From contig JAIPGO010000039.1 in the NCBI GenBank assembly GCA_021736135.1, positions 1 to 33,972 on the forward strand: DNA of 33,972 nt, read 5' to 3'. Positions 6,592 through 31,431 of this stretch are shown here, piece after piece. Each line of letters begins with the position of its first letter. Position 1 is the first letter of the stretch. The DNA is from Candidatus Cloacimonadota bacterium (GTDB taxonomy: Bacteria; Cloacimonadota; Cloacimonadia; Cloacimonadales; TCS61). The translations under genes were made by a program, and so were the position numbers. The notes beneath the pieces were generated by a model. The model had not been told where the DNA came from, ran no database searches, and worked only from the letters and a program-made list of their open reading frames with translations.

Positions 6592-6640
6592 AAATTCTGA
6601 TATATCTCCGAGCCTGCGTATCCAGACCATCCTGGTCTGG
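6592..6640. repeat. Single partial copy of the double-hairpin repeat family
   Basis: This stretch matches the second half of the 121-bp unit found at 29005-29402: it shares AAATT..GAT, GAGCCTGCGT and the hairpin arms CCAGACCA (6622-6629) and TGGTCTGG (6633-6640). The hairpin begins two bases beyond the mtaD stop codon. The array at 29402 likewise touches the stop of its neighbour. It may act as a 3' end stabiliser or weak terminator. Confidence 0.8.
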
Positions 6641-9676: not shown

Positions 9677-9753
9677 TGGTGTCCCCGACGCGATTCGAAC
9701 GCACGGCCTTTTGATCCGGAGTCAAACGCTCTATCCAACTGAGCTACGGGGAC
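9677..9753 (-). tRNA. tRNA-Arg(CCG)
   Basis: The minus strand folds as a complete tRNA of 77 bases including an encoded CCA. The acceptor stem is GTCCCCG/CGGGGAC; the D-arm contains AGCTCAGTTGGATAGAGC; the anticodon stem TTTGA/TCAAA holds the loop CTCCGGA with anticodon CCG; the T-arm has GTTCGAATC. It reads the arginine codon CGG. Confidence 0.96.
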
Positions 9754-9824: not shown

Positions 9825-10000
9825 GCTTTTTTTCTCAGCACCCGGATCAGAAAATACATTTCAACCGCAAATACTTGGATAGCATTGATCAATATGCAAA
9901 ACACAGACGAGGACGTCTATGCTACAAGAGGATTTATTTTTTTATTTCTTTTCTTTAATCCGTTTAATTCACTTAATCCGCGGTTTCTATTTTTCTTGAA

Positions 10001-10038
10001 ACGAATCACTAATCACTAATCACGAATCACGAATCACG
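10001..10038 (+). repeat. Heptamer tandem repeat, locus A
   Basis: Five perfect 7-base units in the order ACGAATC, ACTAATC, ACTAATC, ACGAATC, ACGAATC, then ACG. Related degenerate arrays lie at 14760-14821, 22607-22648 and (reverse orientation) 28893-28934. Confidence 0.9.
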
Positions 10039-14759: not shown

Positions 14760-14821
14760 ACAACTCACGACTCACAACTCACGACTTACGTTTACTCACG
14801 ATTCACGTTTACTCACTATTC
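14760..14821 (+). repeat. Heptamer tandem repeat, locus B
   Basis: Units ACAACTC, ACGACTC, ACAACTC, ACGACTT, then two 10-base variants (ACGTTTACTC) alternating with ACGATTC and ACTATTC. The array runs into the 3' end of the 1074-residue protein gene, so its TAA stop (14811-14809) lies within the repeat. Confidence 0.8.
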
Positions 14822-17800
14822 AATCTCTTTAAATACTCACGTATCAGTTCCTGATATTCAGGTGGAAAATCCCGGTAATTTTCTTCCAGTAACGCTTTCT
14901 GGCGTAATTTGTCAAACTTCATTTTGATTTCAGCAGGAGTATCCCATTCCAGAAATTCACTGTTCTCAGCTTTCCTCTTTTTACTGAATTCCCGCTTATG
15001 AATAGATTTCTGGGCGTCCAGTAACCGGGATAGTATTCTCTCCTGAGTATCGATCAGATCCTGATCAATCCTGCCCTGTTTCAGATTGCGGGATATTCCT
15101 TCCAGATCATCGATCATCTGGTTAATGGCAGAAGTCTGTTTCTGAGCTTCCGTATCATTCTGCAGCATCCTTTTCAGATTTTCAGCCAGACGCTCTTCTT
15201 CTCCTGCCAGTCTTTGCATTTCCTGACGCATGCTCTGCGAAGGTTTTCCGCTGTCCATCATCTGCTGAAAAAGCTGCTGTGTCATCATATTCATCATCAT
15301 CTGCTGTTCACCCATCTGCTGTAACTGCTGCATAAGCGACTGCATACCGCTGCCGCCACCACCCTGCTGCATATTCTGCGAACTTTGCATCAGATCATAG
15401 ATCATCAGATTGATCCCTTTTTGAATATCTTCCAGATAACTTTCCACGTTAGCTGCTTTGGCGTCGTTGATATACTGAAAAAGCTCCCGGAATTCGGACA
15501 TTGTATAATTTACGTCATAAACGAATTTGGGACCCAGAGCCAGTACGATCATCGGAACGGAATAAAGTTTCTGCAGGATCAGGCTTATCGATTCATGTTC
15601 GGATATAAGTTCCGGCAGAATGGCAAAAGGATCGCGCGCATAGCGTTCACTGATCTTTACCTGTTCCCGGCTCATAAAGATGAAACTGCGAATGGCTTGA
15701 TCAAGTGCTTCCCCAATCGCTGCTGAACCGCTCATGCTCATCATGGAATTCATATTTTCCAGCTTCTGACGCAAGCGCTGCATTTTGCTGCCTGCCTGCT
15801 GCTGACTTTGCTGTGCCTGCTGCATCTGCTGGTCACTAAGTTGCTGACTTGCCTGCTCAATATCGCTGCCCAGACTGTCCATCATGCCGGATTCCATAAG
15901 CTGATCCATCTGTTCTTTTACTTTACCGTCACTTTTGGGATCCATTAGGCTATTTGCAGCTTCCATCTGTTTCTGTAAGTCATCCAGCCGTTTCTGCTGG
16001 TCTGCCTGCTCTTGTGCCAGTTTATCGCTGCTTTCTTCACCTTCCGAAGTGCGTTCATTCAGGTCTTCCTGCATCTTTTCCAGTTCTTCGGCAATTTCAA
16101 GGGCTTTCTGCAGGGTTTGTTCCTTCTTTATCTGTTCCAGAAGCTTGAGGGTCTGGTCAATTTTTTCGGCAAAATCCTCCATAGAGAATTTCATATTTTC
16201 CATGGCTTTCTGCATCACTTCCGGATCCATATCTTCCATTGCTTTTGCCATTTCTTCCATAGCTTTCTTCAGATCGTCGTTACTAATTTCTTCCATCAGT
16301 TCCTGGATGCGCTGCATTTTTTCCAGAGTTTCACTGGAAAGCGTCTGGTTATTCTGCATCTTTTCCACCAGTTCCTGGTAGCTTTCCGCCATATTTTCCA
16401 CATTTTCACTCAGGTTTTCCTGTTTCTCAAGAAGTTTTTCCAGGTCTTTTTTATCTTCCCAGTCGTATTCTTCTTTTTTCATCAGTTCCCGGCGCTTTTC
16501 TTCAAAATCCTCCTGCAATTGTTTACTTTCTTCCAGGGTTTTTTCCATGAACTGTGATTTTGCTTCTTCCTCAGATTCTATTTCCTGATATATTTCCGAT
16601 ATTGAAGGGAAGCGCGCCAGATATTTCTGCGAACGCCCCACCTGCTGCTGTGGACTATTATCCGTAATTTCCACCCAATAGGTTAAACGGTCCCCTGGCA
16701 GCAGCCAGATATCATTCAGGTCAAAAACGTATTCCAGTTCGAGCACACTGCCCTTGATCTGTTTCTGAATGATAAGACTATCCGCAACTTCATTATTCAC
16801 CTGATATCTCAAAGTAAGGTCATGCAGCCCGAAATCATCTGTTGCCCGTATTTCCAGACGCAGAAGCATATTCTGGTCTAACAGGGTATCTCTGCCCGGA
16901 TATACTATCCGAATCTCAGGAACCGCATCCGGTACTGCCGTAATGCTTTTTTCCACCCGCTCATTACGGTTACCCAGAAAATCAAGTAGATTGATATGAT
17001 AAGATCCGCTGCGCTCGATGGTAAATTCCCCGTCAAAACTGCTTCTGCCCTTACGTTCCATTGACTGCAATGTGCCATTATCAAATACAACCAGCGCTGT
17101 ATCAATAGGATTATTCGCCACTATCTCCAGTCTTGTTTCCGTGCCGCTTAGTGCTTTTAAATGTCCGTTGCTGCCTTTTTCCAGCACATCTTTTAAACCT
17201 GTATATGCCGGATAGCTGTATTTTACCATATATTCCTGGATCGTCGGCAGTTCAAATATTTCCACCTGAAAAGTATCACTTACCGCATAAGGTGTTTTTA
17301 TGCAGTAAGCAAAAGAAAAATCCAGATTACGGAAAACCCTGCGGTTCTCAAAGAGCTGTTCTTCACGCCAGACTTTTTCCTGTTTCCATAAAAGTGTATG
17401 CTCCACGTTTGGTTCTGCTTCAATGACGCTTATCTCCAAATCGCTGCCTTTGGTCAGTGCTATATTACCGGGACTCACTTCCACAAATTCCTTATGTTCT
17501 TCCGGGGGCATTTTCATCTGCCGGAAATAACCTAAAGCTCCCAGATATCCGCTGCCGTCAATCAATAACAGCAGCACCGAAGCGGCTAATATCGTTAATG
17601 CCAGAGTATAAAGTTGCTGTAAAGGTTCCTTATTTGCCCTAATCTCCTGATTTTCTGCCTGACGGTCTGCCAGTTCCAGAACTGCTGCAATAAACTCCGG
17701 TTCTGACGGATTTTCTGACTGCAGTTCCCAGGCATTTTGATAAGTATCATTTTTATCGTGGTTAAAAATATCCAGTAACCGAGCCGATTGCCGCGCATTC

Positions 17801-22606: not shown

Positions 22607-22648
22607 TCAAATCACTAATCACTTTTCACTTTTCACTATTCACTTTTT
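22607..22648 (+). repeat. Heptamer tandem repeat, locus C
   Basis: Units TCAAATC, ACTAATC, ACTTTTC, ACTTTTC, ACTATTC, ACTTTTT: a more degenerate array of the same family as 10001-10038, just upstream of the TetR control region. Confidence 0.8.
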
Positions 22649-25794: not shown

Positions 25795-28700
25795 ATGAAA
25801 CTTATAGATTTATCAATAAAAAGAGTTGTACTGATCTCAATGGTCTATATCTTGATCGTGGGATTTGGGATTTACTCATTAACGCAATTGAAGATTGACT
25901 TATATCCTGATATGGATTTTCCCATTGTGGCAGTGATCACGACCTATTCCGGGGCAGGTCCTGAGGATATGGAAAATCTGGTAACCAGACCTATTGAGGA
26001 AGCCGTGGTTGCCACGGAAAACGTGAAGAATGTGACTTCCAGTTCTGCCGAAGGGTCGTCAATCGTGATGCTGGAATTCAACTGGGGTACGGACATGGAT
26101 CAGGCGGATACCAATGTGCGCAATAACATAGATTTCGTGCGTGATTATCTGCCGGATGATGCCTCCGATCCCCTGGTTTTCAAATTTGATCCTTCCCTGA
26201 TGCCCATTATGTTCATCTCGCTATCTAATGATAATATGGGGCCTGCGGAACTGCTCAATCTTTCGGAAGACCGCATAGAAGCACTGCTGGAACGGGTTGA
26301 TGGCGTGGCGGCAGTAAGCACGATGGGTGGTTTGCGGCGACAGATCAACGTGAACCTTGATCCCATACTGATGGCCGCCAATATGGTAAATGCCCAGCAG
26401 ATCACAGGTGCCATTGGCGCAACGGCAGGTTTGATGCCGGCAGGTAACATTGATACTGCCACGAAGAGTTATAATATCAGAGTATATTCCGAATATCGTA
26501 CTTTGGAGCAGATAGAGAACGTGATCGTGGGCAATGTCGGTGGAAAACCTGTTAAGCTGAGTGACGTGGCAAGCGTGGAAGACGATTATGCCGAACTGCA
26601 CAGTAACGTACGTGTGGACGGCACATCCGGCGTGACGCTGATCGTGCAAAAACAGAGCGATGCCAATACGGTTCTTGCCTGTAAAGGTGTGAAGAAAGAG
26701 CTGAATGACATCCTGAAATTGCTGCCTCAGGGGAGTAAATTTAATCTGATGTTTGATCAAAGCCAGTTCATTCAGGATTCGGTCAATAATCTTTCTATGA
26801 CGGCAGTGCTTGCCTTTCTTATCTGCTGCGTGGTTATCTACCTCTTCCTGCGTAACCTGCGGGGAAGCATCATTATGGCAATTTCAATGCCGGTATCGGT
26901 TATTTTCACTTTTGCCGTTCTTTATGTGAACGGGCTTACCCTGAATATCATTTCAATGGCGGGGCTGGCTCTGGCAGTGGGTATGCTGGTTGATAACTCG
27001 GTTGTGGTTCTGGAAAACATCTACCGACACCGCGAAGAAGGTTATTCCAAAGCGGAATCAGCAAGTCTGGGAGCCAGCGAAGTCAGCAATGCCATTGTTG
27101 CTTCCACTATTACCACGATAGCTGTGTTTTTACCGGTACTTTTTGTGCCCGGCATCACAGGTCAGATATTTGGCGATATGGTGATCACCATTACATGCTC
27201 TCTGGCAGTATCATTGGTGGTTGCCTTAACTCTTGTGCCAATGGTCTCATCGCGCCTGATCAGAACTCAGGCTGAAAAGAAGAATCAGAAACAGAATGCT
27301 CTATTGAAAAGTCTGAACAGTTTCTTTACCTGGTTGGAGTTAAAATATAAACATGTTCTGCACTGGGCTATCAATAATAAGCGGAAAGTTCTGATTGCTG
27401 TCATGCTGCTTTTCTTTGGTTCTCTGGGACTGATACCCGTAATTGGTGGAGAATTCATGCCTGAAGCAGATCAGGGTCATATTCAGATCTATGTGGAAGG
27501 CAGGGTTGGTATTCCTTACGATGAACTGGAAGGTCTGGCATTGCAGGTGGAAAACGCATTGTTGACGGCAGCGCCGGAAACAGATGCCCTATACCTGCGC
27601 TATGGCGCTCAGGAAGGATTGATGGCATTTGATTCGGCTTCTAATAATATGGAAATTCATCTGAAGCTCAAAGATGCCAGCCACAGAAATCGTTCCCAGA
27701 AGGAGATCGAAGACTCCATTCGTGAGAATTTCAGCAAGATTGCCGGTATCAGTTATAATATCACTCAGGGTAATATGATGGGTGACCAGAAGGCTATCGT
27801 GGTCAAACTCATCGGTAATGACCTGGCAAAAGGTGAAGAAATTGCCAACCAGATCTATGAAAAGATGCAGAAAGTGAAGGGCTTTGTGGATATCGAAAAA
27901 AGCATCGAACAGCAGGTGCCGCAACTGGAAGTGAACCTGAACCAGGACGTGCTTAATGAATATGGGCTTTCTTCTCTGCAGATTGCCAGCATTATTTCAT
28001 ATTCTATCCAGGGCGTGACGGCTCAGCGCTTTCGTGAAGAAGGTGACGAATATAATATCCACGTGCAGCTCGATAAGAAATACCGTAATGACCGTGCAGC
28101 TCTGGAATCGCTGCTGATACCCACGATGAGCGGCGTTAACGTACCCTTGCGGCAACTGGCAACTATTGAAGAAACCATTGCTCCGCCCTCAATACAGAGA
28201 GAAAATCAGGAGCGTCTGGTGAGTGTGAACTGCAATCTTACCCGTAAAACAGACCTGAACAAGGCGAAACGCTATATCAATGAGATACTTGATGAAACGC
28301 CGATCCCTTCGGAATTTACGGTACTGATCGGCGGACAGGCGGAAGACCAGCAGGAATCCAATTTCTGGCTGCTGATCGCCTTCGCAGTTGCTATTGTGCT
28401 GGTATATATGGTGATGGCTTCCCAGTTTGAGTCGCTCATTGATCCCTTCATTATATTCTTCACCATTCCTCTGTCCCTTATCGGTGTATTCCTGATGCTC
28501 TTCATCACGGGAACGAAGATAAGTATTATGTCGCTGGTCGGCGTGGTGATGCTGGTGGGTATTGCCGTAAATAACGGTATTGTGCTGGTAGATTACATTA
28601 ATCAGTTACGCCAGCGTGGACTTGGCGTGTTGGAAGCCGTGGAAAAAGCAGGTGCAGCACGAATGCGCCCGGTTTTGATGACTGCTTTCACCACGATTTT

Positions 28701-28896
28701 CGGTATGGTGCCACTGGCATTGGAAATGGGTTCTGGTGCCGAACTCTGGGCGCCCCTTGCTCGCTCGGTCATCGGAGGGCTCTTTTCCACCACGATTCTC
28801 ACACTGGTCGTGATCCCGGTAATTTACATAGTTGTGGAATACCTGGGAAACAAGCATACACGTAAAAGGATGAAGGGAGTTAGTGAAGAGACGTGA
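25795..28896 (+). CDS. RND-family efflux pump permease
   Basis: A 1033-residue inner-membrane, proton-driven pump of the AcrB/HAE type. It has the N-terminal TM1 (VVLISMVYILIVGFGIYSL), two large periplasmic loops and twelve membrane helices. The TM4 motif reads GMLVDNSVVVLEN: D400 matches AcrB D407, but N401 stands where AcrB has D408. The TM10 motif reads GIAVNNGIVLVDY, with Asn where AcrB has K940. The proton relay therefore differs from the AcrB triad; this version is known from other RND groups. Its substrate is unknown, drugs or lipophilic compounds being typical. The TGA stop falls inside a heptamer repeat array. Confidence 0.95.
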   Translation: MKLIDLSIKRVVLISMVYILIVGFGIYSLTQLKIDLYPDMDFPIVAVITTYSGAGPEDMENLVTRPIEEAVVATENVKNVTSSSAEGSSIVMLEFNWGTDMDQADTNVRNNIDFVRDYLPDDASDPLVFKFDPSLMPIMFISLSNDNMGPAELLNLSEDRIEALLERVDGVAAVSTMGGLRRQINVNLDPILMAANMVNAQQITGAIGATAGLMPAGNIDTATKSYNIRVYSEYRTLEQIENVIVGNVGGKPVKLSDVASVEDDYAELHSNVRVDGTSGVTLIVQKQSDANTVLACKGVKKELNDILKLLPQGSKFNLMFDQSQFIQDSVNNLSMTAVLAFLICCVVIYLFLRNLRGSIIMAISMPVSVIFTFAVLYVNGLTLNIISMAGLALAVGMLVDNSVVVLENIYRHREEGYSKAESASLGASEVSNAIVASTITTIAVFLPVLFVPGITGQIFGDMVITITCSLAVSLVVALTLVPMVSSRLIRTQAEKKNQKQNALLKSLNSFFTWLELKYKHVLHWAINNKRKVLIAVMLLFFGSLGLIPVIGGEFMPEADQGHIQIYVEGRVGIPYDELEGLALQVENALLTAAPETDALYLRYGAQEGLMAFDSASNNMEIHLKLKDASHRNRSQKEIEDSIRENFSKIAGISYNITQGNMMGDQKAIVVKLIGNDLAKGEEIANQIYEKMQKVKGFVDIEKSIEQQVPQLEVNLNQDVLNEYGLSSLQIASIISYSIQGVTAQRFREEGDEYNIHVQLDKKYRNDRAALESLLIPTMSGVNVPLRQLATIEETIAPPSIQRENQERLVSVNCNLTRKTDLNKAKRYINEILDETPIPSEFTVLIGGQAEDQQESNFWLLIAFAVAIVLVYMVMASQFESLIDPFIIFFTIPLSLIGVFLMLFITGTKISIMSLVGVVMLVGIAVNNGIVLVDYINQLRQRGLGVLEAVEKAGAARMRPVLMTAFTTIFGMVPLALEMGSGAELWAPLARSVIGGLFSTTILTLVVIPVIYIVVEYLGNKHTRKRMKGVSEET

Positions 28897-28934
28897 GTCG
28901 TGAGTCGTGAGAAGAAGACGTGACTCGTGATTCG
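28893..28934 (-). repeat. Heptamer tandem repeat, locus D (reverse orientation)
   Basis: Plus-strand units GTGAGTC, GTGAGTC, GTGAGAA, then ACGTGACTCGTGATTCG: the complement of the ACGACTC/ACTAATC family. It begins in the last codons of the pump gene and contains its TGA stop (28894-28896). Confidence 0.75.
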
Positions 28935-28952
28935 ATATATTAAGAAAACCAG

Positions 28953-28990
28953 GCAGGCAGGTTCTGATAAATTTAACAGAACCTGCCTGC
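28953..28990 (+). terminator. Long hairpin after the efflux operon
   Basis: A perfect 14-bp stem (28953-28966 with 28977-28990, arm GCAGGCAGGTTCTG, ten-base loop) follows the pump gene by about 55 bases. The T-tract after it is weak (TCTGTTTATA), so it may be a terminator or a 3' stabiliser. Confidence 0.65.
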
Positions 28991-29004
28991 TCTGTTTATA
29001 TGAA

Positions 29005-29402
29005 CCAGAGCTGGAAGCTATGGATACAAAGCCTGGCAGGTTATTCAAAGCTGATAAGTTTCCTGCGAAATTTGAAATATCCCCCAGTCTGCGTTACCAG
29101 GCCATCCCTGGTCTGGATTTCAAAACCAGAGCTGGAAGCTCTGGAAACATAGTCTGACAGATCATCTTAAAGCTGATAGTGTGTTGCGAAATTTGATGTT
29201 TTCCTGAGCCTGCGTTACCAGACCATCCCTGGTCTGGATTTCAAAACCAGAGCTGGAAGCTCTGGAAACATAGTCTGACAGATCATCTTAAAGCTGATAG
29301 TGTGTTGCGAAATTTGATGTTTTCCCAAGCCTGCGTTACCAGACCATCCCTGGTCTGGATTTCAAAACCAGAGCTGGAAGCACTGGATACGCAACCTGAT
29401 GG
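29005..29402. repeat. 121-bp tandem repeat array, 3.3 units, with paired hairpins
   Basis: Units start at 29005, 29126, 29247 and 29368 (partial), exactly 121 bases apart. The units at 29126 and 29247 differ by about two bases; the first unit is more diverged. Each full unit holds two hairpins: CCAGAGCT-GGA-AGCTCTGG and CCAGACCA-TCCC-TGGTCTGG. The array ends with CTGGATACGCAACCTGA, an inverted relative of the GAGCCTGCGTTACCAG found inside the unit, so the basic element is bounded by imperfect inverted termini. Its last base adjoins the stop codon of the methyltransferase. No gene lies here. A partial copy is at 6592-6640. Confidence 0.93.
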
Positions 29403-30056
29403 CTATTTCCTCAATATGATCACCTTAAACGGAATATCTTCAGAATTCGGGTCACCGCTGTCAGTTAATATCTTCTGTTCTTTCAGAACAGTGAAATTCA
29501 ATGAATCTGTAATGGTTTTTATGTATTGATCGGTATGCTTAAATATTGAAACTCCCCACGCAGTTGGGAGTTTGATGTAATCCGGTTGTGGGTTTGATCC
29601 CGGTTTCAGCTCAACTGAAGAGGGTATTGCTATCGAAAAAGCTAAAAGCCCGTCAGGTTTCAGGATGCGATGTGCATCTTTGATTATTGGCAGAATATCA
29701 CCGAAAAAATGGAAAACGCCACAACAGATGATATTTGAAAATGATCTATCCGGATAGGGAAGAGGGATATCTCTAATATCATACTGCTTTAATTCCTTAG
29801 CAAACGATTTCTTCCTGCACATTTTCAGCATTTCCTCTGAACCATCTAATCCGGTGATATCCAGACCCATCCTGGAAAAATGAATAGAGCTTAATCCGGT
29901 ACCAATTCCCAGATCAAGAAGTGTTTCTCCTGGTTTTATATATTCAAAACACATTCCGAATAAAACATCATGTCCATAACTGTGAAATTCTTTCACCTGA
30001 TCATCATAACTGGCGGCATACACATCATGGCTTTTAATAAAATCAGTTTCCTTCAT
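29403..30056 (-). CDS. Class I SAM-dependent methyltransferase
   Basis: About 217 residues with a Rossmann-type methyltransferase fold. Motif I is LLDLGIGTGLSS (about 47-58), the acidic ribose-binding loop is DITGLDGSEEML, and the later motif DRSFSNIICCGVFHFF is followed by LKPDGLLAFSIA. It resembles UbiE/Methyltransf_11 enzymes; the acceptor cannot be named. The start is placed at ATG 30056, behind GGAGGGCTT, instead of an in-frame ATG at 30125 that would reach into the preceding gene. It is the last gene of the DUF134-led operon. Confidence 0.85.
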   Translation of the reverse strand: MKETDFIKSHDVYAASYDDQVKEFHSYGHDVLFGMCFEYIKPGETLLDLGIGTGLSSIHFSRMGLDITGLDGSEEMLKMCRKKSFAKELKQYDIRDIPLPYPDRSFSNIICCGVFHFFGDILPIIKDAHRILKPDGLLAFSIAIPSSVELKPGSNPQPDYIKLPTAWGVSIFKHTDQYIKTITDSLNFTVLKEQKILTDSGDPNSEDIPFKVIILRK

Positions 30057-30075
30057 AAGCCCTCCTATTAGTTTC

Positions 30076-31431
30076 TTATTTATGCAACTGCGCCACGGCA
30101 TTTTCAGCGGCTTTGATGAGTACATATTTCGTGGGTGCAGTAGTCAGCAGCGGATGCGTGCCAACCTGGAAGGAGAGAAGTTCATATACCGTAACGTATT
30201 TCTGAATTGCCAAAGCGATGAGATTGATCAATTCCCCCGTGGAGTCTCCGCCGATGATCTCTCCGCCGATGATCGTACTTGTCTGCGGTGAAACCACCAG
30301 TTTGACCATCATTTTGGAAGTGTCAGGCAGCGTTGCCGGATGCCGGTCAACGTCTTCGAATTTTCCGACTATATAAGAGATATTTGCTTCCTGAGCAGTC
30401 TGCTCTATTGCACCAGCCGAGGCAAATGAAACACCGTTTATCTTGGTGGAAAAAACAGATAATGTACCGGTAAAATTACGCAGCAGTTTAATATTGAACA
30501 GGTTATATCCCAGCACGCGTGCTTCTGCCGTTGCCGTGGAGGCCAGCATAATATTATCCGTTCTGCCTGTAATGAAGCCGGTAGTCTGTGAACAGTCACC
30601 GATGGCAAATACATCAGGAACAGCCGTTCTCATATAACGGTCAACCACGATGGCGTGGTTTTTATTGATCTGTAATCCCAGGTTTTTTGCCAGTCCTGTA
30701 TTAGGGCGATAGCCTATGGAAGCTATAACGAGTTCGGCTTCGATGACTGTGCCATCCTGTAATTTCACACCGGTTACTTTATCGTTTTCACCCAGAATTT
30801 CACTCACACGGTTGCTGGTATAAAGCTGAATACCGGTTTCTTTGATCGCAGCATCAGCCCTTAAAGCCACATCAGGTGAAAAAGCACGGGAAAGGCATAA
30901 TGCTTCCATTTCCACCAGTGAAACTTTCTTATCCTTGTGCTGAGCAAGTTGTTCCGCCACTTCCACGCCGATAAAACCACCACCAATGACTACGATATTC
31001 TTTGCCAGGTCAGTTTTAGCTTTCAGGGCTTCTATATAATCATAACTTTTTATGATATATTCCACGCCTTCCAGATCATATCCGGGAATAAAGGATGGTA
31101 CAACCGGAGTTGAACCCGTGGCAAAAACCAGTTTCTTAAAACCGAACCGTGAATGATCGCAGGTGATCACGGTTCTGCTTTCCAGGTCAATATCGACTAC
31201 CTGATCCACATAAACCTCGCCACCGGCATCGATAAACGGTTTGGGTCCCATCATGTTCTTTGTCACGTCACCCAAAGCATAAAAAATGTAAGGAATACCG
31301 CAGGGTACCAGCCCTTTTGCTTCTTCCTTGATCATCAGAAAACTTTTGTCGGGATTCTGTTTTTTCCCCGTAACTCCCGCGATGATACCCGAAGGTCCTC
31401 CACCAATAATGATTACGTCATAAGTCTGCAT
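30076..31431 (-). CDS. FAD-dependent pyridine nucleotide-disulfide oxidoreductase (NADH oxidase / CoA-disulfide reductase type)
   Basis: About 451 residues. Motifs are the FAD-binding GGGPSG (10-15), the single redox cysteine C44 in GLVPCGIPY, the NAD(P)H-binding VIGGGFIGVEVAEQL near 156, the second FAD motif AIGDCSQT near 277, and a dimerisation domain at about 320-451. Single-cysteine members of this family include NADH oxidase, CoA-disulfide reductase and NADH polysulfide reductase; sequence alone does not choose among them. The start at ATG 31431 has GGAGAA upstream; the longer frame to 31473 lacks such a site. It lies two bases after the MFS gene, so they are co-transcribed. Confidence 0.88.
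   Translation of the reverse strand: MQTYDVIIIGGGPSGIIAGVTGKKQNPDKSFLMIKEEAKGLVPCGIPYIFYALGDVTKNMMGPKPFIDAGGEVYVDQVVDIDLESRTVITCDHSRFGFKKLVFATGSTPVVPSFIPGYDLEGVEYIIKSYDYIEALKAKTDLAKNIVVIGGGFIGVEVAEQLAQHKDKKVSLVEMEALCLSRAFSPDVALRADAAIKETGIQLYTSNRVSEILGENDKVTGVKLQDGTVIEAELVIASIGYRPNTGLAKNLGLQINKNHAIVVDRYMRTAVPDVFAIGDCSQTTGFITGRTDNIMLASTATAEARVLGYNLFNIKLLRNFTGTLSVFSTKINGVSFASAGAIEQTAQEANISYIVGKFEDVDRHPATLPDTSKMMVKLVVSPQTSTIIGGEIIGGDSTGELINLIALAIQKYVTVYELLSFQVGTHPLLTTAPTKYVLIKAAENAVAQLHK

Follow-up and report, generated by a model that had tools for sequence, protein, structure and literature searches.

A tandem array of inverted REP pairs of the REPIN/BIME type in a Cloacimonadota genome, and its probable link to a transposase of sister genera

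Introduction

REP hairpins are short non-coding mobile DNA elements that are thought to be copied by dedicated REP transposases. When two REP elements are paired in inverted orientation they are called REPINs, a type of element that is also named BIME.

The closest described systems come from a few well-studied bacteria. The REPINs of Pseudomonas fluorescens SBW25, the GI REP doublets, consist of two inverted REPs and, between them, a spacer whose length is constant and whose sequence varies; they are intergenic and dispersed, occur also in regular tandem arrays and are linked to genes of REP-associated Y1 transposases, or RAYTs (PMC3116915). The REP/BIME elements of E. coli, which are associated with TnpA-REP, form mosaic pairs of REP and inverted REP, are found in tandem copies and carry a 5' tetranucleotide tag, GTAG, next to a bulged stem (PMC8266576). 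The GTAG super-family of Di Nocera et al. has an unpaired tag at one end, a stem of 6-13 bp, many copies and flanking positions at RAYT genes (PMC3733652). Here, an array of paired hairpins is compared with these systems. It is located in a Candidatus Cloacimonadota bacterium (assembly GCA_021736135.1, the source genome), on a stretch of 33,972 nucleotides (contig JAIPGO010000039.1) that is referred to as the window.

Results

Architecture of the array

The copies in the array match at 90% and are free of indels (TRF), and the self-identity at a lag of 121 nt is 0.88, whereas 1000 shuffles gave 0.25 (maximum 0.35). There are 2 differences in 121 positions between units 2 and 3, and 27-28 between unit 1 and either of these. 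Each unit contains two hairpins with 8-bp stems: A, which reads CCAGACCA-TCCC-TGGTCTGG on the forward strand, and B, which reads CCAGAGCT-TCC-AGCTCTGG on the reverse strand (loop GGA/TCC). The two are mutually inverted, and their tagged heads face each other over the 69-nt spacer (table 1). The first-pass annotation had described an exactly spaced 121-bp tandem array with two nearly identical units and two hairpins per unit, all of which is reproduced here. It had also mentioned inverted ends; this is correct for B relative to A inside the unit, but not for the ends of the array, which are both formed by B in the same orientation (starting at 29005 and 29368) with one stem mismatch apiece.

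Table 1. Coordinates of the array, its hairpins and the neighbouring features in the window
Feature	Position	Strand	Basis
RND efflux permease gene (AcrB/AcrD/AcrF family), upstream of the array	25795..28896	+	Pfam PF00873, E 4e-263
Inverted repeat in the interval between RND gene and array, 26-nt arms, 85% complementary	28946..28997	.	
Tandem array of head-facing REP pairs, BIME/REPIN type, 3.2 x 121 nt	29003..29387	+	TRF
REP B copy 1, one stem mismatch, tag GTAT on - strand	29005..29023	-	Pattern scan and sequence
REP A copy 1, tag GTTA + CCAGGCCA-TCCC-TGGTCTGG, one G-T wobble	29093..29116	+	
REP B copy 2, CCAGAGCT-TCC-AGCTCTGG, tag GTTT on - strand	29126..29144	-	Pattern scan
Spacer, 69 nt, B head to A head	29145..29213	.	
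REP A copy 2, tag GTTA + CCAGACCA-TCCC-TGGTCTGG	29214..29237	+	E 1.5e-7
REP B copy 3, identical to copy 2 letter for letter	29247..29265	-	Pattern scan
REP A copy 3, identical to copy 2 letter for letter	29335..29358	+	E 1.5e-7
REP B copy 4, one stem mismatch, tag GTAT on - strand	29368..29386	-	Pattern scan and sequence
Class I methyltransferase gene, stop abutting the array	29403..30125	-	Pfam PF08241, E 5.5e-19; ORF list

As single-stranded DNA, a 112-nt array unit folds with z = -3.4. The distance between B and the tag of A is kept at 69-71 nt in nine units from five loci, and the sequence of the spacer diverges, so that the elements form inverted REP pairs with a spacer of set length. Two other classes of repeat were ruled out: a coding repeat, because the period of 121 nt is not divisible by 3 and the array occupies an interval between two genes, and CRISPR, because the units are homologous also between their hairpins and the repeated element is a genuine pair of hairpins. 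A known structured RNA was ruled out as well, because at the Rfam gathering score a tRNA was the sole match in the window and the array has no match to a curated family.

Stem pairing and the tag

Tag and hairpin are both conserved. Among source-genome loci that were selected for carrying the repeat, at least 6 of 8 stem positions pair in 68 of 83 CGT-N10-TCCC sites, compared with 3 of 119 sites with C[ACT]T. Compensatory changes are present at 8/8 stem pairs in 16 REP variants, and since these variants were picked by hand as hairpins, they support covariation between subfamilies rather than pairing as such. The tag is always GT(A/T)N. In the source genome it is mostly GTTN; the window family uses GTTA, GTTT and GTAT, GTTC and GTAC are found at other loci as well, and exact GTAG is confined to a second family described below. 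In other Cloacimonadota, among them the MAGs Tobar13.5m-G52 and Candidatus Stygibacter frigidus, all 19 copies of an exact 20-mer are preceded by GTA[TCA] at the position of the REP tag. The 20-mer also occurs in two proteobacterial MAGs; these single hits without a tag are approximately what chance would give in 257 Gb, and they were discarded. The use of GTTN in the source genome, as opposed to GTAN in its relatives, may reflect either decay or the action of another enzyme. The scarcity of GTAG speaks against movement of the family by a RAYT, since the Stenotrophomonas enzyme no longer cleaved when the tag was GTTG (PMC8266576).

Dispersal in the source genome and in relatives

When the array was used as a BLAST query, 40 matches were found in the source genome, and a pattern of tag and stem gave 39 matches and, when reversed as a control, none. 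With a covariance model of the REP, at least 142 copies were found; this is a lower bound, as the model search was limited to 150 scored candidates per genome, and all copy counts derive from searches. The same model found 97 and 61 copies in two genomes of a sister genus and 41 in one genome of another family, and altogether 19 of 40 relatives had matches. The family thus consists of short palindromes (20-40 nt) with many intergenic copies: 72 of 90 REPs are located outside ORF proxies at a coding density of 84%, and the remaining 18 are inside three ORF proxies that span arrays. The gaps holding REPs are tandem in 12 of 19 cases and convergent in 5.

Independent arrays of the same 120-122 nt unit are located on contigs C64 and C139, and single or partial units on C38 and C85. 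At many other loci the pair has a short-linker form, TCAGGGCA-GGGA-TGCCCTGA AAACGTTT CCAGACCA-TCCC-TGGTCTGG, in which the linker is palindromic; arrays of this form have other periods, 65 nt in C98 and about 129 nt in C94. Units that adjoin each other at one locus resemble each other more than they resemble units of other loci, and this suggests growth in place. The first-pass annotation had recommended a genome search with one unit and had named confinement to this locus together with a lack of hairpin conservation as grounds for giving up its REP-like reading. The unit proved to be dispersed in the source genome and in relatives, and its hairpins are conserved with compensatory changes.

Several other repeats were observed. 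Within the window, a lone intergenic REP of the array family is located at 6615-6640 on the forward strand, with tag GTAT (GCGTATCCAGACCATCCTGGTCTGG) and a loop that is one base shorter. At three loci (L022:8150-8420, L024:5570-5640 and L026:6450-6510), there are units with a CCCCGAT..ATCGGGG hairpin in place of part of hairpin B, resembling repeats near the Y1 gene of locus L009; an insertion of one REP into another or a conversion between families is possible. Heptamer-like intergenic repeats, GTGAATC or GTGAGTC with their complement, occur at scattered sites of the genome, in many cases immediately next to REP pairs (window 10001-10038, 14760-14822, 22619-22647 and 28885-28935; also L032, L027, L036 and L037). 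In L034:6685-8520, an ATPase-like gene and a small neighbouring gene have REPs on both sides, and this pair is possibly a mobile or defence cassette.

A RAYT beside the same hairpins in sister-genus genomes

Both hairpin sequences of the window are present letter for letter beside RAYT genes in sister-genus genomes. In genome G004 (contig C243), the RAYT has 201 aa and matches Y1_Tnp above the cut-off; its score to the NCBIfam REP transposase model is 62 bits, under the cut-off of 80. Tagged hairpins of the array family, CCAGACCATCCCTGGTCTGG among them, are located on either side of this gene, and one of them abuts its stop codon. Its homologue in genome G031 (contig C103; 74% identity) is followed after 32 nt by GTAT-CCAGAGCTTCCAGCTCTGG, whose stem-loop is identical to hairpin B of the window, and further copies of GTAT-CCAGAGCATCCTGCTCTGG are found on both sides. 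In both genomes, therefore, a RAYT (a Y1 HUH transposase) is flanked by the same REPs, as is characteristic of REPINs and BIMEs.

The same PPIase gene is located directly downstream of the RAYT in both genomes. The syntenic locus of the source genome is on contig C75. Its neighbouring genes are homologous (52-70% identity) and it carries REPs in matching positions, but the stretch in which the RAYT would be expected consists of 300 nt that contain no such gene. A gain of the RAYT by the sister genus at the PPIase site is just as possible as its loss from the source genome. As to the REP-associated transposase that the first-pass annotation had advised to look for, a RAYT with the same hairpins was found in the sister genus, but none beside the family in the source genome, a 148-contig MAG (97.95% complete) with many REP arrays near contig ends. 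The likely transposase of the array family thus appears to survive in sister genera and to be missing from the source genome.

A second REP family with its own transposase

Nine Y1_Tnp matches are present in the source genome, and no window-type REP is located within 1.5 kb of any of these genes. One of them, the RAYT on contig C147, is an open frame that scores 91 bits (cut-off 80) against the NCBIfam REP-associated tyrosine transposase. It is flanked by GTAG-CACAGACG-TCCC-CGTCTGTG hairpins, whose stem is unlike that of the window family. This GTAG family has 45 listed matches in the source genome, 32 of them identical to the 26-nt query. The C147 RAYT and its REPs make up a complete REP/RAYT pair, which looks recently active and whose REP family looks younger than that of the window.

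The open frame on C147 allows for the alternative that the window family is not orphaned and that this enzyme still moves both sets of REPs. The enzyme is the one RAYT of the same clade in the source genome (E 2e-22), and an 8-bp stem and a TCCC loop are common to its REPs and the window family. However, its flanks contain only the CACAGACG family, whose listed matches are mostly exact, whereas the window family has another stem and another tag, is more diverged and has no hairpin near any Y1 gene of the source genome. We therefore consider this alternative unlikely.

A decayed copy of GTAG-CACAGACG with 3 mismatches was observed in the window at 9902-9927 on the reverse strand, about 150 nt from a tRNA (9680-9753). 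Two further Y1 transposase loci of this genome have their own repeated hairpins, GGAGTACATTAAG-AATT-CTTAATGTACTCC in L012 (G000:C26) and CCCCCGAT-TGAA-ATCGGGGG in L009 (G000:C123), which suggests several REP/transposase pairs in one genome.

Genomic neighbourhood

Considering the orientation of its neighbours, the array is located between convergent genes (table 1). The inverted repeat that precedes it is followed by TTTTCTT on the reverse strand and is, by its sequence, a possible terminator of the methyltransferase transcript; the terminator scan made no call at this repeat, and it called no intrinsic terminators within the array.

The position of the array directly at the methyltransferase stop would suit a functional RNA element, kept mainly to stabilise or end the transcripts of the RND and methyltransferase genes. 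The RNA fold of its reverse strand is strong (z -4.9), and effects of REPs on mRNA decay and termination are known (PMC8049555). On the other hand, the same element is present at many unrelated genes, mostly in tandem rather than convergent gaps, the array itself has no called terminator, and both the dispersal and the link to a RAYT would be left unexplained. Such an origin is therefore improbable, more so than continued movement by the C147 enzyme. That the array is a chance or misassembled tandem repeat of no family, as could be suspected because tandem repeats are prone to assembly errors and the source genome is a MAG, is refuted for practical purposes by the independent arrays, the single units and the related elements in other genomes, and only the copy number at the array site is uncertain.

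Discussion

The array is best explained as part of an old REPIN/BIME family that was moved by a RAYT, which has probably been lost, and that has grown locally by tandem duplication; we assign a probability of about 0.85 to this explanation. The first-pass annotation had spoken of REP-like elements and recent amplification, and the dispersal, the compensatory changes and the sister-genus RAYT with the same hairpins all agree with it. Each REP would consist of a GT(A/T)N tag followed by a stem of 8 bp and a loop of TCCC or TCC, and a Y1 transposase of the RAYT type, recognising tag and hairpin in single-stranded DNA, would have copied REP pairs to new intergenic sites. We infer this copying from the known mechanism and from the sister genus, in which RAYT genes have the same hairpins on their flanks. 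At the array site, slippage or unequal recombination would have multiplied one inserted pair into three units in head-to-tail order; multiplication in place is indicated by the 119/121 identity of neighbouring units and by the greater divergence between loci. Local amplification of REPINs has also been attributed to the host replication machinery (PMC8049555). With its cognate RAYT probably lost from the source genome, the window family is likely orphaned, so that local duplication and decay would be its only remaining sources of change. If the array has a role, it would be a passive one, with hairpins at the transcript ends of two convergent genes, where they may affect mRNA.

To a broader, tentative scenario we give less than even odds. 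The tag of the REP population would have shifted from GTAN to GTTN, the population would have outlived the loss of a vertically inherited RAYT, and a second pair of GTAG-REPs and RAYT would have spread, which would amount to a natural succession of REP systems in one lineage. The syntenic loci with and without the RAYT are useful to models of REPIN persistence after RAYT loss.

No description of REPs or palindromes in Cloacimonadota was found in the open-access literature, and Cloacimonadota is not among the phyla given for GTAG repeats in the accessible part of PMC3733652. The family appears to be ordinary in kind but undescribed in this phylum, and it extends REP/RAYT systems to Cloacimonadota. 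Inverted REP pairs, a spacer of fixed length and variable sequence, tandem clusters and the linkage to a RAYT place the array among REPINs and BIMEs (PMC3116915, PMC8266576, PMC8049555). It shares with the REPINs of SBW25 all the features listed in the Introduction, the stem, loop and tag sequences being different; unlike in SBW25, its pair combines A with B, which are different REPs, and no cognate RAYT was found in the source genome (PMC3116915). It resembles the E. coli elements in its mosaic pairs, tandem copies and 5' tag, whereas its REPs have GTAN or GTTN in place of GTAG, and their 8-bp stem, which carries a TCCC loop, has no bulge; they are thereby nearer to the perfect-palindrome REPs that go with group 3 enzymes (PMC8266576). 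The features given for the GTAG super-family are likewise present, GTAG being exact in the CACAGACG family and replaced by GTTA, GTTT or GTAT in that of the window (PMC3733652). In other respects, the array belongs to a well-understood class of bacterial repeat.
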